This document shows positions 2,781-62,459 of a stretch of 64,000 bases of DNA, in pieces. The stretch spans positions 1-64,000 of the forward strand of contig JAGBJI010000006.1 of the NCBI GenBank assembly GCA_017934545.1. The letters are read 5' to 3'. Numbering within the stretch: position 1 is the first letter of the stretch; every line of letters starts with the position of its first letter. The notes below the pieces were generated by a model. It was given only the letters and a program-made list of their open reading frames with translations, did not search any database and was not told the origin of the DNA. The position numbers and the translations under genes were made by a program. This DNA is from Bacteroidales bacterium. Lineage in GTDB: Bacteria; Bacteroidota; Bacteroidia; Bacteroidales; P3.

Positions 2781-2902
2781 TTTTCAGAAAAGAAAAATAA
2801 AAAACATATGTTTTTCTTTTCAAAAACATATGTTTTTTGATTAAAATTCATATGTTTTTTTATAAAAATACATATGTTTTTTTGAAATACGTTCAGAAAA
2901 GA
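2781..2902. repeat. 22-bp lattice array, family A (CATATG core), copy A1
   Basis: Four CATATG cores start at 2805, 2827, 2849 and 2871, exactly 22 bp apart. Each lies between an A-rich and a T-rich run, although two left flanks are imperfect. A cap TTTTCAGAAAAG sits at 2781-2792, and a second cap with CAG at 2894-2896 lies one lattice step beyond the last unit. The array lies between two divergent promoters (minus 2671-2701 and plus 3075-3105). The rest of the 2594-3156 gap holds no gene. Confidence 0.92.
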
Positions 2903-3074
2903 AATCTTTGTTTGGTTGAAATAATCTTAAAGAGTGTCAAAAAGAAAAAATACAGGCGGAAAGCAGAATGAATACAGTGAGTTTTTTACGGTGTATTCGT
3001 TGAATTTCAATAGGTAAGATGTAGAGTAAAGGCGTAGCAAGGAGGAAGAATTTGCAATAAATAGTCAAAAAAAT

Positions 3075-3105
3075 TTTGTTGATAGAAAAATTTACCGTAA
3101 TTTTG
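3075..3105 (+). promoter_or_regulatory. Bacteroidota-type promoter of the vor operon
   Basis: TTTG (3075-3078), a spacer of exactly 19 bp, then TAATTTTG (3098-3105), matching TTTG-N19-TAnnTTTG. The first gene starts 52 bp after the -7 box. Confidence 0.8.
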
Positions 3106-3156
3106 CGTTTTAAATTTAACGTAAAGTATTAACCAAATTTAAAACAATAAAAAACA

Positions 3157-3375
3157 ATGGCAATAAAAGGAGCAATTGTAGTTGATAAAGAGAAATGCAA
3201 AGGATGCGGCGTTTGCGTAAGCGTGTGTCCGAAGCAGGTTATCGCTTTATCAAAAAACGTAAACGGAAAGGGTTATAACTATGCGGAAATGATAAACGGC
3301 GATTGCATTGGCTGTGCTTCATGCGGAATGGTTTGCCCCGACGGAGTGATAACGGTTTACAAAGCTAAGGTCTAA
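3157..3375 (+). CDS. vorD: 2-oxoacid:ferredoxin oxidoreductase, ferredoxin (delta) subunit
   Basis: This 72-residue two-cluster ferredoxin has the motifs C14-x2-C17-x2-C20-x3-C24-P and C50-x2-C53-x2-C56-x3-C60-P, each binding a [4Fe-4S] cluster together with a Cys of the other motif. It passes electrons from the TPP-bound substrate to external ferredoxin. It is first in a four-gene operon with the alpha, beta and gamma subunits (gaps of 12-21 bp), an arrangement common in anaerobic Bacteroidota. Whether the complex prefers branched-chain 2-oxoacids (VOR) or 2-oxoglutarate (KOR) cannot be decided from sequence by eye, so the symbol is provisional. Confidence 0.85.
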   Translation: MAIKGAIVVDKEKCKGCGVCVSVCPKQVIALSKNVNGKGYNYAEMINGDCIGCASCGMVCPDGVITVYKAKV

Positions 3376-3395
3376 CTAAAAAACTTAATTCAAAA

Positions 3396-4481
3396 ATGGC
3401 AAAAGAGTTAAAATTAATGAAAGGTAACGAAGCGATTGCAGAAGCAGCGATTCGTTCCGGTTGTGACGGGTATTTCGGTTATCCTATTACCCCGCAATCA
3501 GAAGTAATGGAGCATCTTATGGCTGAAATGCCGTGGGAAAAGACAGGAATGGTAGTTTTGCAGGCCGAAAGTGAAGTTGCATCAATTAATATGGTATATG
3601 GCGGTGCTGCAACGGGTAAAAAAGTTATGACTTCTTCATCTTCACCCGGAATGTCTTTAATGCAGGAAGGTGTTACTTATTTGGCAGGAGCTGAACTTCC
3701 TTGCTTGGTAGTCAACGTTATGCGTGGCGGCCCGGGCTTGGGAACTATCCAACCTTCACAGGCAGATTATTTCCAAACGGTAAAAGGCGGCGGACACGGC
3801 GATTATCAGCTTTACACCCTTGCACCTGCAAGCGTACAGGAGATGTATGATTTCGTATTCAAAGCATGGGAGATTGCATTCAAATACCGCAACCCTGTGA
3901 TGATATTGTCCGACGGTGCCATAGGTCAGGTAATGGAAAAAGTCTATGTAGGCGATTACGTACCGCGTTGGACCGACGAAGAAATAGCAAAGAACGCTCC
4001 TTGGGCAGCATTCGGTAAACCTGCATCAAGAGAACACAATATAATAACGTCATTGGAGTTGGATTCTGCACGTCAAGAACAAAACAACCACCGTTTCCAA
4101 GCTAAATACAGAGAAATGGAAAAGAACGACACATTGTACGAAGAGATAATGTGCGATGATGCAGAATATGTATTCGTTGCTTACGGTTCGTGCGCACGTA
4201 TTGCACACAAAGCCGTACAACTTGCAAGAGAAAAAGGAATAAAAGCAGGTTTGTTAAGACCTATCACATTGTTCCCGTTCCCAACCGCACCAATCAAGGC
4301 GTTGGCACAAAGAGTAAAAGGTATGCTTTCAGTAGAAATGTCTGCAGGTCAGATGGTACAAGACGTAAAACTTGCATCCGAATTCAAATGTCCTGTTGAA
4401 TATTTCGGACGTTACGGCGGTATTATTCCTACACCGCAGGAAGTTGTTGAAGCATTGGAAAACAAATTAATTAAAGGTTAA
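3396..4481 (+). CDS. vorB: 2-oxoacid:ferredoxin oxidoreductase alpha subunit (VorB-like)
   Basis: This 361-residue protein matches the alpha subunit of the pyruvate/2-oxoacid:ferredoxin oxidoreductase superfamily. The N-terminal pyrimidine-binding domain carries GYPITPQSEVMEHL near residue 28 and the stretch SSSSPGMSLMQEG. A C-terminal transketolase-like domain follows, with AYGSCARIAHKAVQLA and LLRPITLFPFP. With the beta subunit it binds thiamine pyrophosphate and oxidatively decarboxylates a 2-oxoacid to an acyl-CoA, which supports amino-acid fermentation or reductive carboxylation in anaerobes. Proteins of this layout are usually annotated 3-methyl-2-oxobutanoate dehydrogenase subunit VorB. 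A 2-oxoglutarate enzyme remains possible. Confidence 0.88.
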   Translation: MAKELKLMKGNEAIAEAAIRSGCDGYFGYPITPQSEVMEHLMAEMPWEKTGMVVLQAESEVASINMVYGGAATGKKVMTSSSSPGMSLMQEGVTYLAGAELPCLVVNVMRGGPGLGTIQPSQADYFQTVKGGGHGDYQLYTLAPASVQEMYDFVFKAWEIAFKYRNPVMILSDGAIGQVMEKVYVGDYVPRWTDEEIAKNAPWAAFGKPASREHNIITSLELDSARQEQNNHRFQAKYREMEKNDTLYEEIMCDDAEYVFVAYGSCARIAHKAVQLAREKGIKAGLLRPITLFPFPTAPIKALAQRVKGMLSVEMSAGQMVQDVKLASEFKCPVEYFGRYGGIIPTPQEVVEALENKLIKG

Positions 4482-4494
4482 CACGAAGAAAGTT

Positions 4495-5322
4495 ATGTTT
4501 AACGAAGAGATAGTAAAACCGGAAAATCTTGTTTACAAAAAAACAAGTGTTCTTACCGATGCCGTTATGCACTACTGTCCGGGATGTCCTCACGGTACGA
4601 TTCACAGAATAATAGCAGAGGTAATAGATGAAATGGGCATACAAGACAAAGCAATAGGTATTGCACCTGTAGGTTGCTCTGTATTGGCTTACAATTATTT
4701 TAACGTAGACTTTGTAGAGGCAGCACACGGAAGAGCTCCTGCACTGGCTTCGGCAATACAAAGACTTCACCCTGACCATCACACATTCACTTATCAGGGC
4801 GACGGTGATTTGGCTGCAATAGGTACGGCTGAAACCATTCACGCATGTAACCGTGGCGAAAACATCATCATATTCTTTGTAAACAATGCTATCTATGGTA
4901 TGACGGGAGGTCAGATGGCTCCTACCACTCTTGTAGGTATGAAATCTGCAACCACTCCTTACGGACGTAGAGTTGATTTGAACGGATGGCCTTTGCAGAT
5001 TACTGAATTGGTTGCTCAATTACCGGGAACCGATTTCGTAACCCGTCAAAGTGCATCTTCTCCTGCAGATGTCAGAAAGGCAAAAGCAGCGGTAAGAAAA
5101 GCATTCGAGAACCAAGCAGCAAAGAAAGGTACTCAGTTCGTTGAATTCGTTTCTACTTGTAACAGCGGTTGGAAGATGACACCTGTTGCTTCTAACGAGT
5201 GGATGCGTCAGAATATGTTCCCTAAATATGTTCCGGGCGACATTAAAGTAGACGGACAGATAGTAAGAGAGTACAATCCTGCAGACAGTAAAGTTATCAG
5301 AGATTTAGTAGCAGTTAAATAA
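4495..5322 (+). CDS. vorA: 2-oxoacid:ferredoxin oxidoreductase beta (TPP-binding) subunit
   Basis: This 275-residue protein starts with a short arm carrying YCPGCPHG. It then has the TPP/Mg-binding signature GDGDLAAIG, followed about 25 residues later by VNNAIYGMTGGQ. The diphosphate and Mg of TPP bind here, while the alpha subunit supplies the pyrimidine pocket. Length and motifs fit the VOR/KOR type beta subunit. It lies 13 bp after the alpha gene and 20 bp before the gamma gene, so the operon is clearly intact. The ATG at 4495 is the only start consistent with this spacing. Confidence 0.88.
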   Translation: MFNEEIVKPENLVYKKTSVLTDAVMHYCPGCPHGTIHRIIAEVIDEMGIQDKAIGIAPVGCSVLAYNYFNVDFVEAAHGRAPALASAIQRLHPDHHTFTYQGDGDLAAIGTAETIHACNRGENIIIFFVNNAIYGMTGGQMAPTTLVGMKSATTPYGRRVDLNGWPLQITELVAQLPGTDFVTRQSASSPADVRKAKAAVRKAFENQAAKKGTQFVEFVSTCNSGWKMTPVASNEWMRQNMFPKYVPGDIKVDGQIVREYNPADSKVIRDLVAVK

Positions 5323-5342
5323 CCCATAAATTAATTACGATA

Positions 5343-5894
5343 ATGACAGAAGAAATAATAATAGCAGGTTTCGGAGGACAAGGAGTTTTATCTATGGGTA
5401 AAATACTTGCTTATTCCGGTGCAATGCAAGGAAAAGAAGTCAGCTGGATGCCTTCTTACGGTCCTGAAATGCGTGGAGGTACTGCAAACGTTTCAGTAAT
5501 CATTTCTGACGAGAGAATATCTTCACCTATTATCAGCCAATTTGATACGGCAATAATCCTTAACCAGCAGTCTTTGGATAAATTTGAAAGTGCTGTAAAG
5601 CCTGGTGGTCTTCTTATCTACGACCCTAACGGTATTACTAAAGCACCTACAAGAAAAGATATCAACGTTTATAAGATTCCTGCAACGGAAAAGAGTGCAG
5701 AGATGGGAATGGCAAAAGTTTTCAATATGATGGTATTGGGTGGATTTTTGAAAATCAAACCTGTTGTAACGGAAAATTACATCAAAGAAGGTTTGGAGCA
5801 TTCGCTGCCTGAACGTCATCACAAACTTATCCCAACCAACCTTGACGCAGTCGCAAAAGGAAAAGAGTTGATAGAACCGGTAAACGTACTTTAA
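5343..5894 (+). CDS. vorC: 2-oxoacid:ferredoxin oxidoreductase gamma subunit
   Basis: This 183-residue protein begins with the family signature IIIAGFGGQGVLSMGKILA, followed by SWMPSYGPEMRGGTANV. Both are typical of the gamma domain that contacts CoA and completes the 2-oxoacid:acceptor oxidoreductase. It is the last gene of the operon and is followed 30 bp later by a strong terminator (5924-5963). All four subunits are therefore present and the complex should be functional. Confidence 0.88.
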   Translation: MTEEIIIAGFGGQGVLSMGKILAYSGAMQGKEVSWMPSYGPEMRGGTANVSVIISDERISSPIISQFDTAIILNQQSLDKFESAVKPGGLLIYDPNGITKAPTRKDINVYKIPATEKSAEMGMAKVFNMMVLGGFLKIKPVVTENYIKEGLEHSLPERHHKLIPTNLDAVAKGKELIEPVNVL

Positions 5895-5923
5895 TCAAAA
5901 CAATATAATAAAGTACAAATAAG

Positions 5924-5963
5924 AAAAAACTTCCGTTGTAGGTTTTACGGCGGAAGTTTTTTG
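5924..5963 (+). terminator. rho-independent terminator of the vor operon
   Basis: A 12-bp perfect stem, AAAAAACTTCCG (5924-5935) with CGGAAGTTTTTT (5951-5962), encloses a 15-nt loop. The T-run of the right arm completes the signal. Confidence 0.85.
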
Positions 5964-6018
5964 TATAAAGAAGTAATTTAATATTGTTTGTAAAGCAAAA
6001 CTGATAAAAAGTTTATTT

Positions 6019-6258
6019 ATGCCGGAGTTATTCAGATTCTATGGATTTGTTTTTATGTTCTTTTCGTTGGAACACGAACCTATACATTTGCATGTGATAG
6101 GCAAGGACGGACAGGCTAAATTTGTATTGGAAAAAGATGAATTTGTGCTGCAAGAAAGCAAGAACATAAAACTTAATGATTTGAAACGTATTGCAAAAGT
6201 TATAAAGGATAACCACGATATTATAATAAGCCGTTGGAATGAATACTTTAATAAATAA
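6019..6258 (+). CDS. DUF4160 family protein
   Basis: This 79-residue protein carries the DUF4160 pattern: an N-terminal LFRFYGFVFMFF, then EHEPIHLHVIGKDGQAKFVL, and a C-terminal helix with IAKVIKDNHDIIISRWNEYF. The family is a small, frequently transferred unit nearly always paired with a DUF2442 gene, as here, where the next gene overlaps it by 20 bp. The pair resembles toxin-antitoxin modules in size and overlap, but I know of no established activity, so that role is only a possibility. The pair lies between the vor terminator and a family A array. Confidence 0.8.
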   Translation: MPELFRFYGFVFMFFSLEHEPIHLHVIGKDGQAKFVLEKDEFVLQESKNIKLNDLKRIAKVIKDNHDIIISRWNEYFNK

Positions 6259-6499
6259 AGAAAATATAAAAGACATTGTGTTTGCAAATGAATATATCAC
6301 TGTTGTGATGCAGACAGGAGAAAAATATTCACAAAGTTTGAAATATTATCCGTCGTTACGGCTTGCAAACAATGAAGAGCGGAACAATTATAATATTTCG
6401 CCGCTTGGTTTGCATTGGCATAAGTTAGACACGGATATTTCCTTTGAGAGTTTCTTTTATGACTTTTCCCAACCTTTTGTTTATCACCAAATACCGTAA
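6239..6499 (+). CDS. DUF2442 family protein
   Basis: This 86-residue protein overlaps the end of the DUF4160 gene by 20 bp. It shows the DUF2442 layout: a beta-strand start (IKDIVFANEYITVVMQTGE), a central YYPSLRLANNEERNNY, then the hallmark GLHWHKLDTDISFESFF. DUF2442 proteins are small, are thought to bind DNA or a partner protein, and usually accompany DUF4160. The overlap implies coupled translation. A regulator or antitoxin role is inferred from family context only. Confidence 0.8.
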   Translation: MNTLINKENIKDIVFANEYITVVMQTGEKYSQSLKYYPSLRLANNEERNNYNISPLGLHWHKLDTDISFESFFYDFSQPFVYHQIP

Positions 6500-6649
6500 T
6501 TGATTTCGGCATTATTTGAACCGACAGTAATAATTAATTGCCACCATGTGTTGTCTTTTCCCATATTGCACACATAGGCAGTATCGCTTATTTTTTTACA
6601 TTTAACAGAGAGTAATATAGTACGATTGTTTATATTGTCCGTTAATTCA

Positions 6650-6770
6650 CTTTGTGAATCTATTTTTAAAAAACATATGTATTTGAAATAAAAAACATAT
6701 GTTTTTTGATTAAAATACATATGTTTTTTTGTGAAAATACATATGTTTTTTATTTCTGTTTTCTGAAAAG
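6650..6770. repeat. 22-bp lattice array, family A (CATATG core), copy A2
   Basis: CATATG cores start at 6674, 6696, 6718 and 6740, exactly 22 bp apart. A left cap-like TTTGTGAA is centred at 6655 and a right cap TTTTCTGAAAAG lies at 6759-6770, both one lattice step outside. It lies between convergent genes. The remaining gap 6500-6900 holds only a doubtful minus-strand reading frame. Confidence 0.92.
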
Positions 6771-6900
6771 AATTTTTTTAATGGGTAAACAGTGTATTCA
6801 TACCTATTTTTATTAGGCAGGCGGTGCATGTATACAGGGCGGTAAAGGCGTTAATTGACAGTGGGTTGTGAATGTATTGGCGTAAAGTGATATGGGCTGA

Positions 6901-8846: not shown

Positions 8847-8874
8847 ATCTTAATTGTATATAAACTCTTCATAT

Positions 8875-8907
8875 AAAAAAAGCCCAATGTATTATTGGGA
8901 CTTTTTT
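8875..8907 (-). terminator. terminator downstream of mutA
   Basis: Read on the minus strand, a stem built from AAAAAAGTCCCAAT and ATTGGGCTTTTTT (one bulge) closes a short loop and ends in T residues. It lies 21 bp after the mutA stop codon. Confidence 0.65.
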
Positions 8908-8927
8908 GTGTAAATACTGTCGGTCAA

Positions 8928-12420: not shown

Positions 12421-12425
12421 ACAAC

Positions 12426-14219: not shown

Positions 14220-15518
14220 TTATTTCTTGCCCAACAAGGCGAACATCTTTTTCTTGTAATTCTCAACTCCGGGTTGGTCAAAAGGATTTATTCCCAACAT
14301 ATATCCGCTTATGGCACATGCCAATTCAAAGAAATATATCATTTGGCCTATGTTGTATTCGTCCGTTTTGTCAATACAAATCTGCAATTGCGAAACTCCG
14401 CCTTCCAAATGTGCCTGACGGGTGCCTTCTTCGGCCTTGTGGTTGATGTCGGTTAAGGAAAACTTGGTCAAATAGTTCAAACTGTCGTCGTCAACCGATT
14501 GTTCGGCTATGTTTATTTCTCTTTTCGGGTTGTCAACATGGATAACGGTTTCAAACATCAGCCGTTGTCCGTCCTGAACGTACTGTCCCATGGAATGCAA
14601 ATCAGTAGTGTTTGTCACACTTGCAGGAAACAATCCCTTGTGTTGCTTTCCCTCGCTTTCGCCGTACAGTTGCTTGAACCATTCGTTGAAATAAACCAAA
14701 TTAGGCTGATAGTTGACCATCAGTTCTATGGTTTTGCCTTGATTGTAAAGGTAATTTCTTGCAACGGCATACTGAATTGCAATATTGTTTTCATTATCTG
14801 CGTTGTTCAAAAGTTCTTCGCTCATCTGCAAAGCACCTTTGGTAAGTTTTCTTATGTCAAATCCCGCAACTGCAATCGGCAGCAATCCTACGGGAGTCAG
14901 CACCGAATATCTTCCGCCTACGTTGTCGGGGATTACATATGTCTTGTAACCTTCTTTGTCGGCAATGGATTTCAATATTCCTCGGCTTTTGTCCGTTACG
15001 GCAACAATACGTTTTATTGCTTGGGCATGTCCGTATTTTTTTTCCAGATGATTGCGAAGCAATCTGAACGTTACAGCCGTTTCGGTAGTCGTTCCGGATT
15101 TGGAAATAACGCAAAGTGAGTAATCTTTTTTGTCAAGTACGTCCAATAAATCTGCAGTATAGTCGGCGTTAAGCGTGTTTCCTGCATAAAGAATTACGGG
15201 ATGTTTTCTTTCAGATATCAAGGTGTCAAAGTTATGTTTCAATGCTTCAATGACCATACGCGCCCCTAAATACGAACCTCCTATACCTGCGACAACGAAA
15301 ACTTCACTGTCTTTGCGTATTTGCTCTGCCAATTGTTCTATATCCACAAGCTGACAGTCTGTTATCTCGTTTGGTAAATCAATCCATCCCAAATAATCAT
15401 TGCCTTTTCCTGATTTTGTTTTCAGCATTTCTAACGATTGAACGGCTTTTTCACGCAAGGTTTTCAGTTGTTCTTCATTCGGGCGTTCCGAAGCGGAATA
15501 TTCTGTTTTTATTTTCAT
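14220..15518 (-). CDS. pgi: glucose-6-phosphate isomerase
   Basis: This 432-residue protein belongs to the short bacterial glucose-6-phosphate isomerase group (about 430-450 residues). Visible signatures are VVAGIGGSYLGARMVIEAL near residue 77, VISKSGTTTETAVTFRLLR, GGRYSVLTPVGLLPIA and the C-terminal PFDQPGVENYKKKMF. It interconverts glucose-6-P and fructose-6-P in glycolysis. It starts 9 bp after the rlmD stop and is the last gene of the rpmH-rlmD-pgi run, ending at the 14160-14199 terminator. Confidence 0.94.
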   Translation of the reverse strand: MKIKTEYSASERPNEEQLKTLREKAVQSLEMLKTKSGKGNDYLGWIDLPNEITDCQLVDIEQLAEQIRKDSEVFVVAGIGGSYLGARMVIEALKHNFDTLISERKHPVILYAGNTLNADYTADLLDVLDKKDYSLCVISKSGTTTETAVTFRLLRNHLEKKYGHAQAIKRIVAVTDKSRGILKSIADKEGYKTYVIPDNVGGRYSVLTPVGLLPIAVAGFDIRKLTKGALQMSEELLNNADNENNIAIQYAVARNYLYNQGKTIELMVNYQPNLVYFNEWFKQLYGESEGKQHKGLFPASVTNTTDLHSMGQYVQDGQRLMFETVIHVDNPKREINIAEQSVDDDSLNYLTKFSLTDINHKAEEGTRQAHLEGGVSQLQICIDKTDEYNIGQMIYFFELACAISGYMLGINPFDQPGVENYKKKMFALLGKK

Positions 15519-19727: not shown

Positions 19728-19870
19728 TTTCAGAATAGAAAAAAACTTATTTCAGAAAACGAAATAAAAAAAACATATGTATTTTTTTAAAAAAACATAT
19801 GAATTTTAATCAAAAAACATATGTTTTTTGTTTTAAAAACATATGTTTTTTATTTCCCTTTTCAGAAAAG
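19728..19870. repeat. 22-bp lattice array, family A (CATATG core), copy A3
   Basis: CATATG cores start at 19774, 19796, 19818 and 19840. Caps with CAG occur at 19731 and 19753 on the left and 19863 on the right, so the lattice runs over seven steps of 22 bp. It lies between the convergent SGNH and czcA genes. The rest of 19634-19944 holds no gene. Confidence 0.93.
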
Positions 19871-19944
19871 AGAATTTTTTAATTTGGTTTTGATATAGTT
19901 TTTTAATGTATTGATGTGATTATATTATCATTTAAAATAGGTTT

Positions 19945-22900
19945 TTATGCACGTTGTTTTCTTTTATATCTCATTTCAACTATCAGAGGAAAGATAAAGA
20001 GTGTGAAAAGTGTGGCAGTGATTAAGCCGCCTATTATAACTATTGCAAGGGGACGCTGACTTTCACTGCCGATTCCAGTACTCAATGCCGCAGGAAGCAA
20101 ACCCAGTGTCGCCATCATCGCAGTCATCAACACCGAACGTATCCTTGAATGCATCGCTTTGGTAACTGACAGGTGCAGGTCTTTGGTTTTCTTTAGGTAT
20201 TGCTTAATCTCCGAAAGCATAATCACACCGTTTTGAATACAGATGCCAAATAACGCAATAAAACCTATACCTGCCGAAATTGAGAAGTTAAATTCCGTAA
20301 GCAAAAGCATAAGTATTCCGCCTGTGGCGGCAAAAGGCACATTTAAAAGCACAAGAAGAGAATCTTCAATGTCGGAAAATAAAGAGTAAAGCAGCAAAAA
20401 TATCAACAGAATACTTATCGGAATAACTTCAAGTAAGCGTTTGGAAGCACGCTTTTGGTTTTCAAAATCTCCTGTCCAAGTAATCCGTAAATTCTTATCT
20501 TGCTTTATTTTCTTATCCACTTTATTTATGGATTCATTTACAGCACTGACCATATCACGTCCGCGGACGGAGAATTTCACTGCCGTATATCTTTTGTGAT
20601 TATCCCTGCATATCATAAGCGGACCTGTAATCGTTGAAATGTCTGCAAGTTCCGAAACGGGAATCATCGCACCTGTTGAACTGGGAACTAAAATCTTTGC
20701 AATCTCTTCCTTGTTTGAGCGGAAATCTTCGCCGTATCTGACAACCAAATCAAATTTCTTTTCGTCCTCATACACTTTCGTTGCCGTCTTTCCGCCGATT
20801 GCCATCTCTATTATCGCTTGCATATCCGCCTTTTCCACACCGTAGCGTGCCAGAGCGTCTTCTTTGATATTTATCTGCAATTCCTGTTGCCCCACGTTGT
20901 GAATTACGCCCAAATCCTCTATACCTTTTATATCTTTCATCACATTTACAATCTTTGCAGCCGCATCTTCCGAAGCGTAGATGTCATTTGAAAACACCTT
21001 TGCCACAATTGAACCTTTTACACCGCTGACAGCCTCTTCTACGTTGTCGCTTATCGGTTGCGAGAAGTTGAAATCCACACCCTGATACTTATTTAACGCT
21101 TGGCTAATTTCATCTGTCAAACCGTCCTTGCTGATTTTACGCTTCCAATCTTTCTTATTTTTAAGTTTAACAAACAATTCTATATTGTAAAAACCCGTTG
21201 CGTCCGTTCCGTCATTGGGTCTGCCCGCCTGTGTTAAGCATTCCTCAACTTCATCAAAGGAATTAATAATACTGCGGAACTCATCTGCAAACTTTACCGA
21301 CGCATTTAATGAAATACTTTGCGGCATTGTGGCACGGATATAAATACTTCCTTCGTTCATTTGCGGCAAAAACTCACTGCCCAGCAGAAAATACGCACCG
21401 ATTCCGCAAAACATAACCGCAAAAGCAACAATTACCGCCGTCTTTGCACGGTTTTGAACAAACGAAAAGCCTTTGACGGCAGCGTTATTGACGTTTTTCA
21501 AAAAGAAATTGCTTTTTTCTCTGACGTTTTTGCGAAGTAAAAGTGATGAAAGGGCAGGAACCAACGTCAAGGTGAAGATTAACGCACCCAACAAGGCAAA
21601 TCCCAACGTGAAAGCCAAAGGAGAGAACATTTTGCCCTCAACTTTTTGAAACGAAAACACAGGAATCAACGCCGTAATGATGATTAATTTGGCGAAAACC
21701 ACACTTGTAGCCTTGTCAGTTGCGGTTTTTCTAATCATAGAACCCTTTACACGGTTGTCAAACTTGAATTGACCGATTTGTAAAGACTGTTTTGCCAAAT
21801 AAACATACAGACTTTCAACCATAACCACCGCTCCGTCAATAATGATTCCGAAATCTATCGCACCCATTGACAGAAGATTGGCACTCATGCCTGCAATTTT
21901 TAAACAGATAAAAGCAAACAGCAACGCCAACGGTATAACCAACGCAACAATCACCGTACAACGCCAATCCACCATAAAGATAAACACAACCAATGTAACT
22001 AACAAAATACCCTCCAGTAGATTTCTCAACACCGTATGCGTAGCCGTTGTAACCAAATCACTTCTGTCGTAAAACGCTTCAATATTTACGTCATCAGGAA
22101 GGTCATTTTCATTAATCTCTTTAAGTTTTGTTTTAAGCGAAGCAAGAGTTTTTTCAGTGTTGCCGCCTTTTCTCATCACTACAATCCCTTCCACAACATC
22201 GTTATCTGCATTTCTTCCGACCTGTCCTAATTTTGGTTGATGAAACTGACGTACTTGTGCAAGATTTCTCACAAGTATCGGCACTCCGTCAATGTTTTTT
22301 ACAACTATATCGCCGATTTCTTTAATGTTGTTGAGCAATCCTATACCTCTGACCACATAATTTTGATTGTTTTTCTCAATTACATCGCCTCCGACGTTAA
22401 GATTTGAATTTGCAAGGGCGTCGTACAACTCCAAAGACGTAATTCCGTAATGCAAAAGTTCGTTTGGATTAACCGAAACCTCAAAAGTTTTCACTTCACC
22501 TCCGAAACTGACAATATCAGCCAAGCCTTCCACTTCCCTCAAACGCCTTTCAATGACCCAATCCTGCAAAGTTTTCAACTCCCGTACTGATTTATTGCCG
22601 CTTGAAAGCGTATAGCGGAAAATTTCTCCCGTAGGACCGTAAAGCGGTTGCACTTCGGGCGAAACATCTTCGGGGATGTCGGCATCGGCAAGCAGATTAA
22701 ACACCTGCTGACGTGCAAAATCATCATTGACACGGTCATCAAAGACAACGGTTACCACACTCAAGCCGAACAAAGTCGTAGAACGTATATCCGTCTTTTG
22801 TTGTGCGGCATTCATTGCCACTTCTATGGGAATGGTAACAAACTTTTCAATCTCCTGTGCCGAACGTCCCTGCCACTGAGTAATGATTGTCACTTTTGTA

Positions 22901-23040
22901 TTGGTAACATCGGGGAACGCATCCACGCTTGTCGTTTTGAAAGCCCACACTCCGACAATTGCAACGGCCACCGTCAAAATCACAATCAAGTATTTGTTTT
23001 TCACCGAGTAGGTTATAATATTTCTGATTAACTTTTTCAT
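19945..23040 (-). CDS. czcA: CzcA/CusA-family heavy-metal efflux RND transporter
   Basis: This 1031-residue inner-membrane RND pump has the usual twelve membrane segments in two halves and two large periplasmic loops. TM4 carries D396-FGIII-D402-GAVVMVE409, the pattern of divalent-cation pumps (Zn, Co, Cd or Ni) rather than of CusA-type Cu/Ag pumps. The N-terminal DVTNTKVTIITQWQGRSAQE and the porter-domain motifs are intact. It expels metal with proton import, together with the adaptor (23387-24223) and the outer-membrane channel (24257-25507). An unusual 346-bp gap carrying a family B array separates it from the adaptor gene. Metal specificity is inference. Confidence 0.92.
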   Translation of the reverse strand: MKKLIRNIITYSVKNKYLIVILTVAVAIVGVWAFKTTSVDAFPDVTNTKVTIITQWQGRSAQEIEKFVTIPIEVAMNAAQQKTDIRSTTLFGLSVVTVVFDDRVNDDFARQQVFNLLADADIPEDVSPEVQPLYGPTGEIFRYTLSSGNKSVRELKTLQDWVIERRLREVEGLADIVSFGGEVKTFEVSVNPNELLHYGITSLELYDALANSNLNVGGDVIEKNNQNYVVRGIGLLNNIKEIGDIVVKNIDGVPILVRNLAQVRQFHQPKLGQVGRNADNDVVEGIVVMRKGGNTEKTLASLKTKLKEINENDLPDDVNIEAFYDRSDLVTTATHTVLRNLLEGILLVTLVVFIFMVDWRCTVIVALVIPLALLFAFICLKIAGMSANLLSMGAIDFGIIIDGAVVMVESLYVYLAKQSLQIGQFKFDNRVKGSMIRKTATDKATSVVFAKLIIITALIPVFSFQKVEGKMFSPLAFTLGFALLGALIFTLTLVPALSSLLLRKNVREKSNFFLKNVNNAAVKGFSFVQNRAKTAVIVAFAVMFCGIGAYFLLGSEFLPQMNEGSIYIRATMPQSISLNASVKFADEFRSIINSFDEVEECLTQAGRPNDGTDATGFYNIELFVKLKNKKDWKRKISKDGLTDEISQALNKYQGVDFNFSQPISDNVEEAVSGVKGSIVAKVFSNDIYASEDAAAKIVNVMKDIKGIEDLGVIHNVGQQELQINIKEDALARYGVEKADMQAIIEMAIGGKTATKVYEDEKKFDLVVRYGEDFRSNKEEIAKILVPSSTGAMIPVSELADISTITGPLMICRDNHKRYTAVKFSVRGRDMVSAVNESINKVDKKIKQDKNLRITWTGDFENQKRASKRLLEVIPISILLIFLLLYSLFSDIEDSLLVLLNVPFAATGGILMLLLTEFNFSISAGIGFIALFGICIQNGVIMLSEIKQYLKKTKDLHLSVTKAMHSRIRSVLMTAMMATLGLLPAALSTGIGSESQRPLAIVIIGGLITATLFTLFIFPLIVEMRYKRKQRA

Positions 23041-23192
23041 CTTTTGATTCTTTGTTTGTTATCGTTATTATTTACTTTTAATACCGTTATTTGCACGGAT
23101 GTCAACGGTTTCTTTGAAATTTTTATGGTTTGCAATCAGAACAAATCTTCGTAAAGCGGCTCTTTAAATTATTATAATCAACATTTATTTAT

Positions 23193-23298
23193 AAAAAAGT
23201 CAGGTTTTCATAGTAAAAAAGTCACACTTTTATATGGTAAAAATCACATTTTTATATGCATAAAGTCAGGTTTTTATATTATAAAAGTCACACTTTTG
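23193..23298. repeat. 22-bp lattice array, family B (GTCACA-type core), copy B1, inside the czc operon
   Basis: Five cores start at 23199 (GTCAGG), 23221 (GTCACA), 23243 (ATCACA), 23265 (GTCAGG) and 23287 (GTCACA), exactly 22 bp apart, each with A-rich left and T-rich right flanks. No caps are evident. The array lies between the stop of the adaptor gene and the start of czcA, which are read in the same direction; nothing else is seen in 23041-23386. Confidence 0.9.
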
Positions 23299-23386
23299 TT
23301 ATAATACATTGCGATTGTAACAATATTTTTCCGCCGTCAGAATAAAAAAAGATAATTATTAGTTTATATTTTTTATATCCGACGTG

Positions 23387-30854: not shown

Positions 30855-31094
30855 ATGAGTGTATTGGAATTAAAAGCGAGAAAGGCGGATTTGTTTGAAA
30901 CAATTGCGATGATTGATGATGAGAATATTATCAACACGTTGTTAAAAAGCGTTAAGCGTATGTTGGCAAAGCAAAACCAACAGAAAGAAGAGGTTTTTTT
31001 GCAGCAGAGTATTGCGGACGTGTTGGCTCAATTTGAAAACGGAGAAAGCAAACGTATGACCGCAAGTCAAGCCAAGCAGTTGTTAGGGTTATGA
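30855..31094 (+). CDS. antitoxin of TA module 2
   Basis: This 79-residue protein starts MSVLELKARKADLFETIAMI and ends SKRMTASQAKQLLGL. The size, the N-terminal strand-helix start and the 4-bp overlap with a YoeB-like toxin fit a type II antitoxin. It is not obviously related to the antitoxins of modules 1 and 3. Antitoxins of this class usually bind their own promoter, here 30798-30828, alone and with the toxin; that regulation is expected from the family and not shown by the sequence. Confidence 0.75.
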   Translation: MSVLELKARKADLFETIAMIDDENIINTLLKSVKRMLAKQNQQKEEVFLQQSIADVLAQFENGESKRMTASQAKQLLGL

Positions 31095-31372
31095 GTTATA
31101 TTTTGGATTTTGCAGACAGGGCACAGGAGGATTTGTTGTCAATACGTAAAGCGGGAAACAGGGCAACAATAAAGAAAGCAGCGAAGATTATAGACAATTT
31201 GGAGGCAAATCCATATATAGGAGAGGGCAAACCCGAGCGGTTGAAAGGTTACTTTGACAGAGTTATTTATTCACGCAGATTGAACCATTCGGACAGAGTT
31301 CTTTATGAAATATCGGAAGAAGATAAAACGGTGAGGATTTTTCAGTTTTTAAACCATTACGGTGATAAATAA
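31091..31372 (+). CDS. Txe/YoeB-family toxin of TA module 2
   Basis: This 93-residue RelE-fold toxin has GEGKPERLKGYFDRVIYSRRLNHSDRVLYEI and a C-terminal FLNHYGDK with the His-Tyr pair. It is recognisably related to the module 1 toxin, but divergent enough that cross-neutralisation is doubtful. It should cut mRNA on the ribosome. It overlaps its antitoxin gene by 4 bp. The TA3 promoter repeat begins 32 bp after its stop. Confidence 0.87.
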   Translation: MSYILDFADRAQEDLLSIRKAGNRATIKKAAKIIDNLEANPYIGEGKPERLKGYFDRVIYSRRLNHSDRVLYEISEEDKTVRIFQFLNHYGDK

Positions 31373-37633: not shown

Positions 37634-37819
37634 ACTCAGAAAAGAGTATTATTAAAGACTGATTTTGATGTTAAAAAAGTCAGTCTTTATTGATGTAAAA
37701 ATCACACTTTTTTGATATTAAAATGTGATTTTATACATGTATAAATGTGATTTTATACACATAAAAGTGTGACTTTTTATATACAAAAGTGTGATTTTTT
37801 CGGATTGAATTCTGAATTT
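37634..37819. repeat. 22-bp lattice array, family B, copy B2 (seven units)
   Basis: Core starts are at 37657 (GACTGA), 37679 (GTCAGT), 37701 (ATCACA), 37723 and 37745 (ATGTGA), 37767 and 37789 (GTGTGA), all exactly 22 bp apart. A left cap with CAG at 37637 and a right cap with CTG at 37812 lie one step outside. It is the longest array. It lies between two genes read in the same direction. Confidence 0.93.
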
Positions 37820-37886
37820 AACAGCATTGAAGCGGCGTTTTGTTAGATTTTAATCCGTTGAGGTTTAAAAATAATCGCAAATAATA

Positions 37887-56037: not shown

Positions 56038-56045
56038 CAAAGATA
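56038..56045 (-). promoter_or_regulatory. -7 box of the giant cargo operon
   Basis: TATCTTTG on the minus strand lies 49 bp upstream of the start of paralogue 3. No -33 TTG at normal spacing was found. Confidence 0.5.
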
Positions 56046-56122
56046 ATAAAATTAAATGTATTTTGCGGTAAAATGCGGATAAATAATCAATAAAATTTGC
56101 TTAACAGTGTTTTTACTGTATT

Positions 56123-56289
56123 ATTTTCTGATTTCAGTATGTAAAAAGTGTGATTTTATTAATATAAAAATCACACTTTTTTGATATAAAAATGTGACTT
56201 TTTATGGTCAAAAGTGTGATTTATACAGTATAAAAATGTGATTTTTATATCAAAAAAATGTGAGTTTTTTTATCTTCTTTTCTGAATTT
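56123..56289. repeat. 22-bp lattice array, family B, copy B3 (six units)
   Basis: Core starts are at 56148 (GTGTGA), 56170 (ATCACA), 56192 (ATGTGA), 56214 (GTGTGA), 56236 and 56258 (ATGTGA), exactly 22 bp apart. CTG caps lie at 56128 and 56282. It lies between divergent genes. No other feature is seen in 56046-56371. Confidence 0.93.
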
Positions 56290-56371
56290 ATTTGCGGCAA
56301 AGCATATAATAAATATTTGTTTTCTGCGTTACAATGCTTGTAAATAAACAATAAAACACACAAAACACAAA

Positions 56372-57565: not shown

Positions 57566-57586
57566 CGGCAGAATTTGCGGAATTTA

Positions 57587-57618
57587 TTTGTTCAAAACAA
57601 ATAAAATATGTAATTTTG
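57587..57618 (+). promoter_or_regulatory. promoter of fabG
   Basis: TTTG (57587-57590), a 20-bp spacer, TAATTTTG (57611-57618). The ATG is at 57675. Confidence 0.75.
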
Positions 57619-57674
57619 CAGCGTTGAACGACAGACAAAAACAATAGTTATAAACAATAAAAACAAACAGTATT

Positions 57675-58412: not shown

Positions 58413-58436
58413 CTTTAAGTACAATATATTTTAAAC

Positions 58437-58475
58437 AATACAGGAGCGGAATTGTCCGCTCCTGTATTGCTTTTT
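58437..58475. terminator. terminator between convergent fabG and metallo-hydrolase genes
   Basis: AATACAGGAGCGGA (58437-58450) pairs with TCCGCTCCTGTATT (58455-58468) around ATTG, followed by GC and TTTTT. It serves mainly the plus strand. Confidence 0.88.
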
Positions 58476-58522
58476 AATTACGGTATATTGCGTCTTATGT
58501 TTACTGAAAATAAGTTTTGAAG

Positions 58523-59341
58523 TTATTGTGCGTGGATTTGCAGCCCGTCATATGCCAAAAAAACATTGGCGGGAAGGCGTTTTTGAAATGTTTCGTAAGG
58601 TCCCATCAGATGCGACATATGGGTTAAGTAAGCCACATCGGGTTTTATTTCCTCTATCAAGTCCAATGCCTGCTGCAGAGTGAAGTGTGAAAAATGTTCT
58701 TCTTCTCTTAAAGCGTTAACGACCAACGTTTTTACGCCGTTAAGTTTTTGTTTTTCTTTTTCGGAAATAGTTTTGGCGTCGGTAATATATGCAAAGTTGC
58801 CGATACGGTATGCAAGTACGGGCAGTTTGGCGTGCATTACTTCAATAGGTACTATATCTATTCCGCCCACGGTGAAATATTTGTCATTGTTTACGTCCAA
58901 AAAGTGCAGTTCAAACTCGGGTACACCCGGATACATTGGGTGAAAAGCGTAATACATCATCTTTTCCACGCCTTGCAATGCCTTTTTGTTGCCGTAAAGC
59001 GGCATTGCCTTTTGCTGCAAATAGTTGTAAGCCCTCACATCGTCCAATCCTGCGGTGTGGTCCCTGTGTTCGTGGGTGATTAATATTGCATCCAAATGCT
59101 GCACGTCAGCCCTTAACATCTGATAACGGAAATCCGGCCCCGCATCAATTGCTATTTGCAGCGGACGCAAAGCCGTTTTGTTTACAATATTTTCAAAAGT
59201 TATCAAACACGAAGTACGCAGGCGTTTGTCCCTTTTGTCGTTTGACGAGCATACTTCGCATTTGCACCCCGGTATAGGTACGCCCAAAGATGTTCCGGTG
59301 CCTAAAAAAGTGACTTTAAACGTTGATTGGGGAGTATTCAT
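58523..59341 (-). CDS. MBL-fold metallo-hydrolase (PhnP-like)
   Basis: This 272-residue metallo-beta-lactamase-fold enzyme starts at ATG 59341; an in-frame ATG at 59386 would add a non-homologous leader. The start FKVTFLGTGTSLGVPIPGCKCEVC has the Gly-rich turn and Cys cluster of PhnP-like hydrolases. The dinuclear metal motif ITHEHRDHTAGLDD is near residue 80, with later ligands in MHAKLPVLAYRIGN and YLTHMSH. It is likely a phosphodiesterase acting on small cyclic phosphates or RNA ends. It follows fabH by 58 bp and may be the last gene of that operon. Confidence 0.87.
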   Translation of the reverse strand: MNTPQSTFKVTFLGTGTSLGVPIPGCKCEVCSSNDKRDKRLRTSCLITFENIVNKTALRPLQIAIDAGPDFRYQMLRADVQHLDAILITHEHRDHTAGLDDVRAYNYLQQKAMPLYGNKKALQGVEKMMYYAFHPMYPGVPEFELHFLDVNNDKYFTVGGIDIVPIEVMHAKLPVLAYRIGNFAYITDAKTISEKEKQKLNGVKTLVVNALREEEHFSHFTLQQALDLIEEIKPDVAYLTHMSHLMGPYETFQKRLPANVFLAYDGLQIHAQ

Positions 59342-59399
59342 TGTTAAACTGTTGTTTTGAACAATACATATACTCTTGTTAAACAATCAACCTGTTTTC

Positions 59400-60389
59400 T
59401 TACAATGCCCACTTAACCAACACGGCTCCCCAAGTAAAGCCCGCACCGAAAGAAGTAAGTATCAGATTGTCCCCTTTGGTGAATTTATCTTGGTTTTCGT
59501 ACATAAGCATAGGGATAGTTGCACTTGTCGTGTTGCCGTATTTCTCTATGTTAACCAGAACTTGTTCGTCTTTTAACTCCAAACGTTCTCCCGTAGCCTT
59601 AATTATACGCAGGTTAGCCTGATGCGGAAGCAGGAAGTTGATGTCCGATTTTTGCATTCCGTTCTTTTGCAACAACTCTTCGGTCACATCAGCCATTTTA
59701 GTTACCGCCCATTTGAATACGGCTTGCCCTTCTTGGTAGATGAAGTGCTGTTTGTTCATCACGGTTTCTACAGATGCAGGGTGCAAACTTCCTCCTGCCA
59801 CCTGATGAAGATGTTTTACTCCCACTCCGTCCGAATGTAACACTTGGTCAATCACACCGTAAGGCGAATTTTCGCTGGCTTCCAACAGTACGGCAGCCGC
59901 TCCGTCCCCGAAAATAGGGCATGTAGTGCGGTCTTCGTAGTTTACAATTGATGTCATCTTCTCTGCACCGATGACCAAGACTTTTTTGCAAAAACCGCTT
60001 TCTATATATTTTGTTCCCGTAGTCAGACCGTAGATAAACCCGGAGCAACCTGCGTTGACGTCAAAGCCGAATCCGTTCTTTATACCGCACTTGTCGGCGA
60101 TTATGTTTGCCGTTGCAGGAAACTGCATGTCGGGTGTGACGGTGCAGCAAATGATTAAATCAATCTCCGACGGGGAAATATTTTTTTTCTGTAATATTTT
60201 GTTAACGACAATCTCCGCCATATCCGACGGACCTTTCTCTCCTTTAAGAATATGTCTGGTTTTAATACCGATACGGCTCATAATCCATTCGTCCGTAGTA
60301 TCAACCATTTTGCTTAACATCTCGTTGGTGATTACGTCCTGCGGGACATAACCCTCAACAGCCGTTATTATAGCTCTTGTTTTTGCCAT
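59400..60389 (-). CDS. fabH: beta-ketoacyl-ACP synthase III
   Basis: This 329-residue thiolase-fold enzyme has all three catalytic residues visible: Cys in DVNAGCSGFIYGLTTG, His in LLPHQANLRIIKAT and Asn in KYGNTTSATIPMLMY. It condenses acetyl-CoA or a branched acyl-CoA with malonyl-ACP to start fatty-acid synthesis. It lies 17 bp after plsX in the yceD-rpmF-plsX-fabH run, a widely conserved order. The C-terminal GAGFTWGAVLVKW is typical. Confidence 0.95.
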   Translation of the reverse strand: MAKTRAIITAVEGYVPQDVITNEMLSKMVDTTDEWIMSRIGIKTRHILKGEKGPSDMAEIVVNKILQKKNISPSEIDLIICCTVTPDMQFPATANIIADKCGIKNGFGFDVNAGCSGFIYGLTTGTKYIESGFCKKVLVIGAEKMTSIVNYEDRTTCPIFGDGAAAVLLEASENSPYGVIDQVLHSDGVGVKHLHQVAGGSLHPASVETVMNKQHFIYQEGQAVFKWAVTKMADVTEELLQKNGMQKSDINFLLPHQANLRIIKATGERLELKDEQVLVNIEKYGNTTSATIPMLMYENQDKFTKGDNLILTSFGAGFTWGAVLVKWAL

Positions 60390-60406
60390 TTTGTATTTTC
60401 AAAAAT

Positions 60407-61351
60407 TTACTTGTTCGCTTTGAAACTCTCGCCCAAGCGTGAGATAATGCCGGATTGGTAAATGTTTTTTGATTGCAACACCATTGATTTAACGGCTTTT
60501 TGGTTTGAAACGCCGTGTCCGATTATCACAACCTTGTTCGCTCCCAGCAAAGGCAGCCCTCCGTATATCTCGTAGTTAAATCTTTTTATGAAATCATCAA
60601 CAAAACCTCTCTTAATAATGCTTTTGGCAAACGCTTCTATGTTTTTCATTATAAGGTTGCCCACAAAACCGTCGCAGACAATGACATCGGCATTGTCTTT
60701 AAAGATTTCGCACGGTTCGGCGTTGCCTACAAAGTTGTAAGAAGCGTCTTTCATAAGTTGGTATGCGGCTTTGCACTGAAGGTTTCCTTTTCCTTCTTCT
60801 TCGCCTATATTCAACAAAGCGACACGCGGTGATTTTATGTTCAGCGTACTCTCTGCATACAGACTTCCTAACAGACCGAACTGATACAAAGTGTCGGGTT
60901 TGGTGTCAGTGTCCACGCCTACATCCAACAAAACGGTAACGCCTTCTTTTTCTTTTGGGATTAAAGCGGCAAGACAAGGCCTTAAAACGCCTTGTGCAAG
61001 CCCTACGCTGTACATGGTTCCCACAAGCATTGCACCCGAATTGCCCGCCGAAGCAAACGTATCTATTTTTCCGTTTTTCAAAAAGTTGAAACCCACCGCC
61101 AAAGACGAATCAGGTTTTACTTTGAATGCCTTTATAGGCGAATCGTGCATGTCTATGACATCGCTGCAATCCACTATGGTGAGCGAAGAAGGGTCACAAT
61201 TTTCCTGCAAAGCGATACGTTCAATATCGCTTTTGCGTCCGAAAAGGACTAATTCATCGTCTGAAGAAAGGTCCTGCAGTGCTGAAATTGCACCTTTAAC
61301 AATAGCATCGGGAGCAAAGTCGCCCCCCATAACATCCAAACCTATTCTCAT
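60407..61351 (-). CDS. plsX: phosphate acyltransferase PlsX
   Basis: This 314-residue protein starts MRIGLDVMGGDFAPDAIVKG, the PlsX signature. It also has ASAGNSGAMLVGTMY, LLDVGVDTDTKPDTLYQFG, LNIGEEEGKGN and VCDGFVGNLIMKN. It makes acyl-phosphate from acyl-ACP for the PlsY step of phospholipid synthesis. It lies 15 bp after rpmF and 17 bp before fabH. Length is normal. Confidence 0.95.
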   Translation of the reverse strand: MRIGLDVMGGDFAPDAIVKGAISALQDLSSDDELVLFGRKSDIERIALQENCDPSSLTIVDCSDVIDMHDSPIKAFKVKPDSSLAVGFNFLKNGKIDTFASAGNSGAMLVGTMYSVGLAQGVLRPCLAALIPKEKEGVTVLLDVGVDTDTKPDTLYQFGLLGSLYAESTLNIKSPRVALLNIGEEEGKGNLQCKAAYQLMKDASYNFVGNAEPCEIFKDNADVIVCDGFVGNLIMKNIEAFAKSIIKRGFVDDFIKRFNYEIYGGLPLLGANKVVIIGHGVSNQKAVKSMVLQSKNIYQSGIISRLGESFKANK

Positions 61352-61366
61352 ACTTGTAAGAATAGA

Positions 61367-61552
61367 TTACTTGTCGTCTTTCTTTTCTATTGCTAATTTA
61401 CCTCTGTAATATCCGCATTCAGGGCAAACTCTGTGTGATTGGTGAACTGCACCGCAATTGGGACAATTTGCTAACTGTACGCTTTCTACATGATCGTGTG
61501 ATCTTCTTTTTGCTGTTCTCGTCTGTGAGAATCTGTGTTTTGGATTTGGCAT
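61367..61552 (-). CDS. rpmF: 50S ribosomal protein L32
   Basis: This 61-residue basic protein starts MPNPKHRFSQTRTAKRRSHD and has the zinc ribbon C30-x2-C33 / C43-x2-C46 (NCPNCG ... VCPECGYY). All four cysteines are kept, so this is the zinc-binding form. It lies between yceD and plsX, as in most bacteria. Confidence 0.95.
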   Translation of the reverse strand: MPNPKHRFSQTRTAKRRSHDHVESVQLANCPNCGAVHQSHRVCPECGYYRGKLAIEKKDDK

Positions 61553-61618
61553 TTTATTTAAATTTTTTAGTTATTTGTTTTATCTTTATTTTGTTCTTTC
61601 TTAAAGAATTGTTTTTAC

Positions 61619-62149
61619 TCAAAGCAATTCTTTAAGTTTATCCCATCTGGGGTCTGTTTCTTTGTTTTCGGTTTTGTTCACTGCATCGAGTTTTTCCAAC
61701 ATGCCTTTGTCACAATCTTCGGCGTGAAGGTGAACCGGTGCAATGGGTATAAGCGTTACCAATTCTTCGTATATATAGTGCGATAAGTCCATCTTGGTTT
61801 CGTTTTCGTCCAAAAGCCATTGGTCAACGTCAATTTCCAGGATACCGTCGGTTGAAGATTTTTTGTCAACGTCGTCAATTTTGACATACAGTGCCGTTTG
61901 CTTGTCAACGGGTATTGAAAGTGTATTCAGACAACGGCTGCACACAACTTTCAGTTCGCCTTTGAACACAAATCCCAACTCAATCAATTTGTCGTTTTTC
62001 ACCACTTTGATTGATATGTCCGCCGCAGCGTCAGATATATCGGGGTATTGAAAATTGTCAAACAAGGCTTTGTCTGCTTTCATCTCAAAAGCATTGCTTC
62101 CTTCAGACAATTTATTGACCTCTATTATATAATCGTTTGCGTCAAACAT
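61619..62149 (-). CDS. yceD: YceD/DUF177 family protein
   Basis: This 176-residue protein has the DUF177 core ELKVVCSRCLNTLSIPVDKQ with a Cys-x2-Cys pair, and the acidic IDVDQWLLDENETKMDLSHY. The C-terminus includes PIAPVHLHAEDCDKG and ends WDKLKELL. YceD is linked to 23S rRNA maturation or large-subunit assembly in other bacteria and precedes rpmF almost everywhere. It is first in this operon, with a good promoter at 62173-62202. Confidence 0.9.
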   Translation of the reverse strand: MFDANDYIIEVNKLSEGSNAFEMKADKALFDNFQYPDISDAAADISIKVVKNDKLIELGFVFKGELKVVCSRCLNTLSIPVDKQTALYVKIDDVDKKSSTDGILEIDVDQWLLDENETKMDLSHYIYEELVTLIPIAPVHLHAEDCDKGMLEKLDAVNKTENKETDPRWDKLKELL

Positions 62150-62172
62150 ACAGTCCCAAGAATTTGAAGTTG

Positions 62173-62202
62173 CAAAGATACATCTTTTTTTTAATATAGC
62201 AA
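62173..62202 (-). promoter_or_regulatory. promoter of the yceD-rpmF-plsX-fabH operon
   Basis: On the minus strand TATCTTTG (62173-62180) is preceded, after exactly 19 bp, by TTG (62200-62202). The yceD start is 24 bp downstream. Confidence 0.8.
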
Positions 62203-62356
62203 GAATAATGTGCGAAAAAAAGACAATCTCCGGCGGTTAACAATTGTTATGCAGGTATTTAACCGAAAGGGTAGGGCGTTAAACAAAACCTATTTTGATA
62301 AGTTGTCATAATTTATAATTGACTATAAAAAATAAAATTCACTGTATAAAAATTTC

Positions 62357-62459
62357 TTTTCAGAAAATGAAATAAAAAAACATATGTATTTTTTCAAAAA
62401 AACATATGAATTTTAATCAAAAAACATATGTTTTTCGTTTCAAAAACATATGTTTTTTT
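62357..62459. repeat. 22-bp lattice array, family A (CATATG core), copy A4
   Basis: CATATG cores start at 62381, 62403, 62425 and 62447. A left cap TTTTCAGAAAA lies at 62357-62367; no right cap is clear. The units closely match those of copy A3. It lies between divergent genes. Apart from this array and the promoters, 62203-62637 holds nothing recognised. Confidence 0.92.

Follow-up and report, generated by a model that had tools for sequence, protein, structure and literature searches.

Thirteen intergenic arrays of short tandem units lie in a 64,000-nucleotide stretch (the window; contig JAGBJI010000006.1, positions 1 to 64,000, assembly GCA_017934545.1) from a Bacteroidales bacterium. Each unit consists of an A-rich run, a short core and a T-rich run, the units follow one another at 22 bp, and the arrays form three families, A, B and C. 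Copies of A and C are dispersed in the source genome, their units and end motifs are in register on one lattice, tracts and cores are conserved to different degrees, and the tracts are phased with the DNA helix. We propose tentatively, putting it somewhat below an even chance, that A and C are modular elements resembling miniature inverted-repeat transposable elements (MITEs) in which the phased tracts are constrained, a bend helping the two ends to meet and contributing to local architecture.

Direct printing and Tandem Repeats Finder confirmed the 13 arrays, and a unit count gave 52 units (16 in A1-A4, 18 in B1-B3 and 18 in C1-C6), as a first-pass annotation of the window had stated, and its description of the cores as fixed in A, TCACA/TGTGA-like in B and variable in C held as well. 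The grammar differs by family: the core is constant in A, C keeps its tracts and varies its cores, and in B the unit number varies and end motifs are mostly absent. The annotation had also claimed a constant spacing of 22 bp with a single 21-bp step in C2. We measured 34 of the 39 core-to-core steps in the window at 22.0 bp, four at 21.5 and one at 22.5; the half-bp steps arise where a 4-bp core is set against a 5-bp core, and the step in C2 is one of these. With the outer edges of the runs as reference, the steps spread from 21.0 to 23.0 because run lengths vary. The arrays are:

A1, 2778..2903, plus strand: four CATATG units, cores 2805-2876; end motifs TTTTCAGAAAAG (centre ~2786) and TTCAGAAAAG (~2895).
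A2, 6650..6775, plus strand: four CATATG units, cores 6674-6745; right end motif TTTTCTGAAAAG (~6764), left side without TTCWGAA.
A3, 19745..19875, minus strand: four CATATG units, cores 19774-19845; end motifs TTTCAGAAAACG (~19754) and TTTTCAGAAAAG (~19864).
A4, 62352..62455, minus strand: four CATATG units, cores 62381-62452; end motif TTTTCAGAAAATG (~62362) on the low-coordinate side only.
B1, 23190..23300, no strand assigned: five units with TCAGG and TCACA cores, at the junction of an RND pump gene and a membrane-fusion gene; without end motif.
B2, 37650..37820, no strand assigned: seven units with TGTGA/TCACA and ACTGA/TCAGT cores; TTCTGAA 21 bp past the right core.
B3, 56140..56290, no strand assigned: six units with TGTGA/TCACA cores; TTCTGAA 22 bp past the right core.
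C1, 10935..11042, no strand assigned: three units, TCAGA, TAG, TAG; ends GCCTTTTCAGAAAAGAG and TTACTTTCGCAAGGGGC.
C2, 27880..27990, no strand assigned: three units, TGTGG, CCACA, TCTA; ends GCCCCTTGTGAAAGTAAT and ATTACTTTCGCAAAGGGC.
C3, 30600..30708, no strand assigned: three units, TGTGG, CCACA, CCTA; inverted ends.
C4, 33762..33870, no strand assigned: three units, TGTGG, TCACA, CCTA; inverted ends, strict GCGAAAGTAA...TTACTTTCGC.
C5, 43836..43943, no strand assigned: three units, CCACA, TGTG, TCTGA; inverted ends.
C6, 47721..47830, no strand assigned: three units, TCACA, TAG, TCAGA; near-perfect inverted ends CGCCCCTTGCGAAAGTAATCCCG.

The position of the arrays between genes, also claimed earlier, was confirmed in general. 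C3 and C1 overlap open reading frames (ORFs) of 166, 84 and 103 aa without a Pfam match at E 0.01, which we took as spurious, and in the first source-genome sample a predicted ORF is overlapped by 4 of the 41 arrays with a 21- or 22-bp period.

The strongest evidence for a constraint on the tracts comes from 16 C elements that were found by an 88-bp span between their ends, with no runs required. In this set 12 of the 22 lattice phases, those of the tracts, carried 1.89-2.0 bits, whereas the ten phases of core and linker carried only 0.54-1.08 bits. This indicates that the constraint in C lies on the tract lattice and not on the core, and the retention of tracts in elements whose cores and linkers vary points to selection on a two-turn tract lattice. 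The combinations of modules (core plus linker) were all different, both in 35 of 35 C elements of the source genome and in 23 of 23 of the congener G001. An exact three-unit C lattice gave 141 matches in the source genome, 14 in G001 and three in G002 (a four-unit array counts as two matches), and none in the 68 other genomes of the family sample; six matches of a backward control were all in the source genome. Among C chains detected by runs of at least 5 and steps of 20-24, three units were present in 38 of 40 (source sample) and 23 of 23 (G001). Their core steps were within half a bp of 22 in 76 of 82 cases in the source, the other six being 21, 23 or 23.5, and in 46 of 46 in G001, so the 22-bp spacing is not absolute outside the window. 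G001 and locus L014 follow the plan of C but differ in their outer ends (GCCGCCCCGTGGCG) and in their cores. Some 50 bp beyond the outermost core of C elements there is a further GCC-type stretch of moderate conservation, which suggests that the element extends one step past the end motifs.

End motifs occupy the same lattice. TTCWGAA or TTGCGAA stood 22 bp beyond the last core in 31 of the 58 ends of A and in 63 of the 80 ends of C (two duplicated arrays included). Of 32 TTCWGAA copies within 60 bp outside A arrays, 30 were at 22 bp; for C arrays the corresponding counts were 29 of 32 for TTCWGAA and 34 of 39 for TTGCGAA/TTCGCAA. The background of TTCWGAA was only 85 in 65,240 noncoding bases. 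Since the motifs are one 22-bp step outside the arrays, end-to-end lengths pile up at 88 and ~109: among 42 motif-to-motif spans of 50-180 bp, 16 were at 88 and 15 at 107-110 (mode 109). The motifs face each other in A and C and thus form terminal inverted repeats, as in MITEs. The two arms of one C element are, however, often unlike in type: C elements with a known motif at both ends comprised 11 mixed and 11 like pairs.

Parts are shared between families, an end motif by A and C and cores by B and C. An end motif was present at 2 of 10 B ends, on one side of two of five arrays, under a strict chain rule that missed known B-like places. B is probably a degenerate or open-ended relative. The 21-bp arrays of G001 had no common end by 6-mer counts, and at 15059-15120 of locus L093 an end-motif-like sequence, TCTTTTCTGAAAAG, itself forms a 21-bp tandem array.

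In family A both tracts and core are constrained, the core being invariant and palindromic. We counted 332 CATATG-CATATG steps at 22 bp in the source genome, corresponding to ~111 four-unit arrays; other gaps of 5-29 bases added nine pairs, and a backward control gave eight. With 332 A steps and 141 C lattice matches, both families are short, dispersed, non-coding elements, again as in MITEs. A chains of three or more units had four units in 28 of 29 cases (524-kb sample), and one extra chain, in the first 264 kb, had two units with a 23-bp step. The copies differ in their flanks. The A pattern with its runs was present in one of 118 genomes of a phylum sample, the source genome. A bare CATATG pair at 22 bp occurred in 8 of 61 genomes including the source, and the matches listed for the other seven lacked the A run pattern. 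Much of the constancy of A is common descent, A being a dispersed four-unit element. The earlier proposal of selection on a two-turn spacing is partly supported, by a lattice far above shuffles, by the kept tracts of C and by the return of the 21- or 22-bp period in congeners; the constancy of A lends it less. Given their dispersal and shared ends, A and C are putatively mobile.

The source-genome counts were obtained from a draft of 2,376,997 bases in 14 contigs (completeness 100, contamination 8.1%), of which the window is contig 8. Two loci, L232 (contig C7 near 160 kb) and L233 (contig C4 near 167 kb), hold two C arrays each with identical flanks; the draft is therefore partly redundant and genome-wide counts are somewhat inflated. 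L232, which repeats L233, was excluded from the analyses of module combinations, family orientation, motif spans and conservation, curvature, orthologous gaps, end-pair types and pairing; both loci were counted in the tallies of core chains and end motifs. Arrays with short flanks near the ends of stretches were skipped.

We compared array periods in noncoding DNA with 20 dinucleotide shuffles per group; loci L012-L023 were outside every group. In the source genome (11 stretches, window included) 35 of 37 arrays of period 8-60 had a period of 21 or 22 (shuffle mean 0.00), far above chance. Congeners, sampled at 34 loci from nine genomes with the G001 C arrays included, had 53 of 63 (shuffle mean 0.40), other members of the family and order 7 of 17 (0.05) and loci L024-L091 26 of 65 (0.10). 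Further out such arrays were rare, with one of four arrays in a small sample of ten loci of the class (17 kb noncoding) and no array in the similarly small samples of ten loci of other classes (11 kb) and of Escherichia coli K-12 (15 kb noncoding). The sequences of the arrays change from species to species, congener arrays being mostly of other sequence and again of period 21 or 22. We had expected one period per genome, which was ruled out, as G001 and G013 hold both 21 and 22; the period therefore seems to be a property of the family of arrays. With some reserve, and tentatively, we suggest that a Bacteroidales clade has intergenic elements selected for DNA mechanics, in which the sequence turns over while the 21- or 22-bp period and, in this lineage, the A6/T6 pattern persist.

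The A/T tracts are phased at the helical period, the sequence pattern from which intrinsic curvature is predicted. Phasing of tract centres at 10.5 bp was 0.66 in source arrays compared with 0.41 in shuffles of run order, and 37 of 37 arrays were above their shuffles; in congeners the values were 0.56 and 0.41, with 25 of 31 arrays above. When curvature was taken as the vector sum of tracts over sampled 88-bp windows, 105 of the 127 most curved (top 0.1%) were in A or C arrays, which make up 1.0% of windows. A single tract bends DNA by ~18 degrees. The mean vector sum in A and C of 5.0-5.2 tracts would then predict a bend of ~90 degrees.

On this basis the following mechanism may be proposed. 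The plan of the elements, an end motif, a fixed number of internal units (four in A, three in C) and a second end motif on one 22-bp lattice, comes with a regular alternation of A6 and T6 tracts every 11 bp. This alternation would be the selected feature, and a simple tract model predicts that it curves the segment strongly and regularly, by ~90 degrees. Curvature and whole-turn length could bring the two end motifs, ~88 or 110 bp from one another and facing the same side of the helix, within reach of a single protein complex; DNA so short would otherwise be too stiff to loop. The bend may also serve as an architectural element at the intergenic site. What the sequences show directly is the dispersal, the lattice, end motifs in register, tracts conserved beside diverging cores and the phasing of tracts; bending, the meeting of ends, copying by a transposase or another enzyme, a binding protein and any effect on genes are inferred.

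Several findings weigh against this proposal. C arrays were detected by their runs, so that their high curvature rank is partly built in. Congener arrays have fewer tracts (31 were scorable, compared with 55 noncoding arrays under a slightly different ORF mask), and curvature may therefore not be the common denominator. The invariant core of A is not needed by curvature alone, and the 23-nt unit of BrickBuilt, a related element discussed below, fits two helical turns less well. Neither exact motif stood at 22 bp in 27 of the 58 ends of A and 17 of the 80 ends of C, and the A span has its mode at 109, not 110. With respect to mobility, the Y1 transposase had no match in any of the 14 genus-sample genomes, several of which are incomplete drafts (a control search matched 5 of 14 known genomes), and DDE_Tnp_1 had none in the source genome; these were the two families searched, and drafts lose insertion sequences. 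Finally, the one junction compared, that of B1, is an empty site in G001, but the two sequences disagree along the entire gap, with no sign of a target-site duplication.

Alternatively, the arrays could be operators whose palindromic units are bound cooperatively at two-turn spacing by a dimeric protein with a nucleoid or regulatory role. We consider this unlikely, though credible. It would account for the invariant palindromic core of A and for the few core choices per genome: CCTA, TCACA, TCAGA and CCACA, counted in both orientations, account for 90 of the 122 source C units. Source units are also more palindromic than shuffles (7.3 compared with 4.7; p<=0.05 in 53% of 34 arrays), those of other genomes less so (4.6 compared with 3.7; 26% of 94 arrays). 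However, the cores of C vary beside invariant tracts and differ by species, and a protein reading A-tracts would fit better than one reading cores. For C, these variable cores speak against a cooperative, sequence-specific protein; the first-pass annotation had inferred a cooperatively binding protein or a nucleoid element. We also considered the palindromic unit as a mark of the whole class and rejected it, as p<=0.05 was reached by 48% of 58 period-22 arrays and only 20% of 70 period-21 arrays.

A and C could also be ordinary MITEs that inherited their spacing from a founder and in which only the transposition ends matter. This would agree with their dispersed copies, inverted ends and restriction to a species (A in one of 118 genomes, strict C ends in 1 of 14), and with the absence of B1 from the matching operon junction in G001: the gap between the pump and fusion-protein genes measures 343 bp with B1 in the window and 60 bp with no array in G001. 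We nevertheless find this rather unlikely. Against it stand the retention of tracts in copies whose cores and linkers have diverged and the period shared by families of unlike sequence; the wholly distinct C module combinations are unlike a recent burst, and neither transposase family searched had a match. Beside B1, the RND pump gene (19952-23041) is 95% identical to that of G001 and the fusion-protein gene 89-94%, whereas other gene-length matches compared were 65-86% identical. Recent transfer of this locus between species is possible.

A role in termination or RNase cleavage, through RNA or cruciform hairpins folded from the inverted ends and the self-complementary units, is improbable in our view, although a review reports such functions for Correia elements (PMC10969869). 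All five folded arrays did beat all of their shuffles (z of -14.4 for C6, -3.1 for C1, -8.5 for C2, -3.7 for A1 and -5.3 for B2), and two of four pairing tests in the source genome were weakly positive (end module, P 0.040; cores of units 1 and 3, P 0.044). The other two source tests, on the outer linker (P 0.59) and on the outer ends (P 0.09), and all four in G001 (P 0.998, 0.096, 0.865 and 0.444) gave no clear excess of pairing relative to arms of different elements; moreover, mixed end pairs are as numerous as like pairs in C. Chance, slippage or an assembly artefact is scarcely conceivable despite the contamination of the draft and its double-counted copies on C7 and C4, as source shuffles gave no array at 21 or 22, the strict C form occurs on five contigs, A copies have different flanks, and like arrays are found in independent assemblies.

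Returning to A and C as putatively bend-assisted modular elements, we compared them with known repeats. Pneumococcal BOX elements, found in Firmicutes, consist of an end box, a variable number of internal boxes of ~45 bp and a second end box; the modular plan is alike, the internal box much longer and the phylum another. REP and REPIN sequences are tied to Y1 transposases as their defining partner. They resemble our arrays as short dispersed extragenic palindromes (PMC3733652, PMC3116915); they differ in the Y1 partner, matched in 0 of 14 genomes here. Correia elements of Neisseria are likewise short, and most of the >120 copies in N. gonorrhoeae precede a gene; tandem two-turn units are not mentioned in the portion of the review compared, which also states that integration host factor (IHF) sites in MITEs bend DNA (PMC10969869). 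The intergenic DNA of E. coli has an AA/TT period of 11 bp, concentrated between genes (PMC516772); a period of 11 bp is commonly tied to negatively supercoiled DNA (PMC4132750). The arrays share this period, but the E. coli signal is diffuse and statistical and does not consist of discrete elements with ends.

The closest relative is the BrickBuilt MITE of Porphyromonas gingivalis, described as tandem 23-nt units with leader and tail segments and small inverted-repeat ends, in 19 copies in ATCC 33277 and with promoter activity in both directions (PMC4596501). Like the arrays here it is an intergenic Bacteroidales element of tandem units of about two helical turns with inverted-repeat ends. 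It differs in its 23-nt unit (22 bp in A, B and C), in its 1 to 22.8 repeats and in a leader and tail of up to 285 and 318 nt; the elements here have a fixed three or four units, ends on the lattice and ~250 A and C copies by pattern counts. The passages of its description that were compared mention neither an end register nor an A6/T6 rule. An earlier statement that no named element was known with this grammar agrees with an Rfam search of the window, which gave no match at gathering score, and has to be qualified by the similar plan of BrickBuilt in another member of the Bacteroidales. In the open literature on repeats and on phased or curved DNA (titles and abstract starts among the matches listed, with subscription papers and preprints outside the scope) such a lattice was not described. 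If the proposal holds, BrickBuilt would belong to a phenomenon more widespread among the Bacteroidales.

If the proposal is correct, A and C are abundant natural DNA modules of variable sequence and preserved shape, and would provide a test bed for curvature and helical phase in bacterial chromosomes and for the movement of very short elements. Within C elements, constant tracts beside variable cores allow selection on shape to be told apart from selection on sequence by observation alone, and the change of sequence from species to species makes the matter accessible to comparative studies.

Two arrays of 23 bp, the unit length of BrickBuilt, were seen in a genome of another family of the order (L194, 8231-8298 and 9647-9736; unit CTCACAAGCTTGTCAATTTTTAT and a variant). 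C1 (10950-11030 of the window) and a C array of G001 (contig C2, 34247-34317) both adjoin a methylmalonyl-CoA mutase gene, and BrickBuilt_7 of P. gingivalis is likewise listed beside such a gene (PMC4596501).

Placement relative to genes gave two candidates that we did not retain. A first count found 1 of 24 source arrays and 15 of 49 congener arrays in convergent gaps, which suggested avoidance in the source and the opposite in congeners. With more sequence and a split by family the bias was not firm: one of 23 A arrays (p=0.052) and two of 21 C arrays (p=0.26) were convergent. An excess in convergent gaps was seen for the 21-bp arrays of G013 (5 of 12, p=0.004), and the other families tested had no bias; because the ORF mask misses small genes, we make no claim on orientation. 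Orthologous gaps of the source and other genomes both held arrays in 15 pairs on the 5' side (p=0.001) and eight on the 3' side (p=0.09). With G001 alone the values were p=0.14 (5') and 0.23 (3'), and among congeners p=0.45 and 1. Conserved positions were dropped since the pairs are non-independent and arrays tend to fall in longer gaps; a test limited to one partner for each gene and binned by gap length gave P of 0.13 and 0.36.

The source bacterium probably comes from a ruminant gut, a suggestion based on kinship only: an oxidoreductase subunit encoded beside A1 (3396-4481) has five relatives 98-99% identical from the rumen of roe deer and water deer and the omasum of roe deer (among the 80 matches retained of 367, Bacteroidales); the source's own record may be absent from these matches. 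Pfam matches among the scanned window proteins include type IX secretion domains, the RND pump and a TonB-dependent receptor, and a small protein at 31091-31372 has a match to the YoeB/ParE toxin family.

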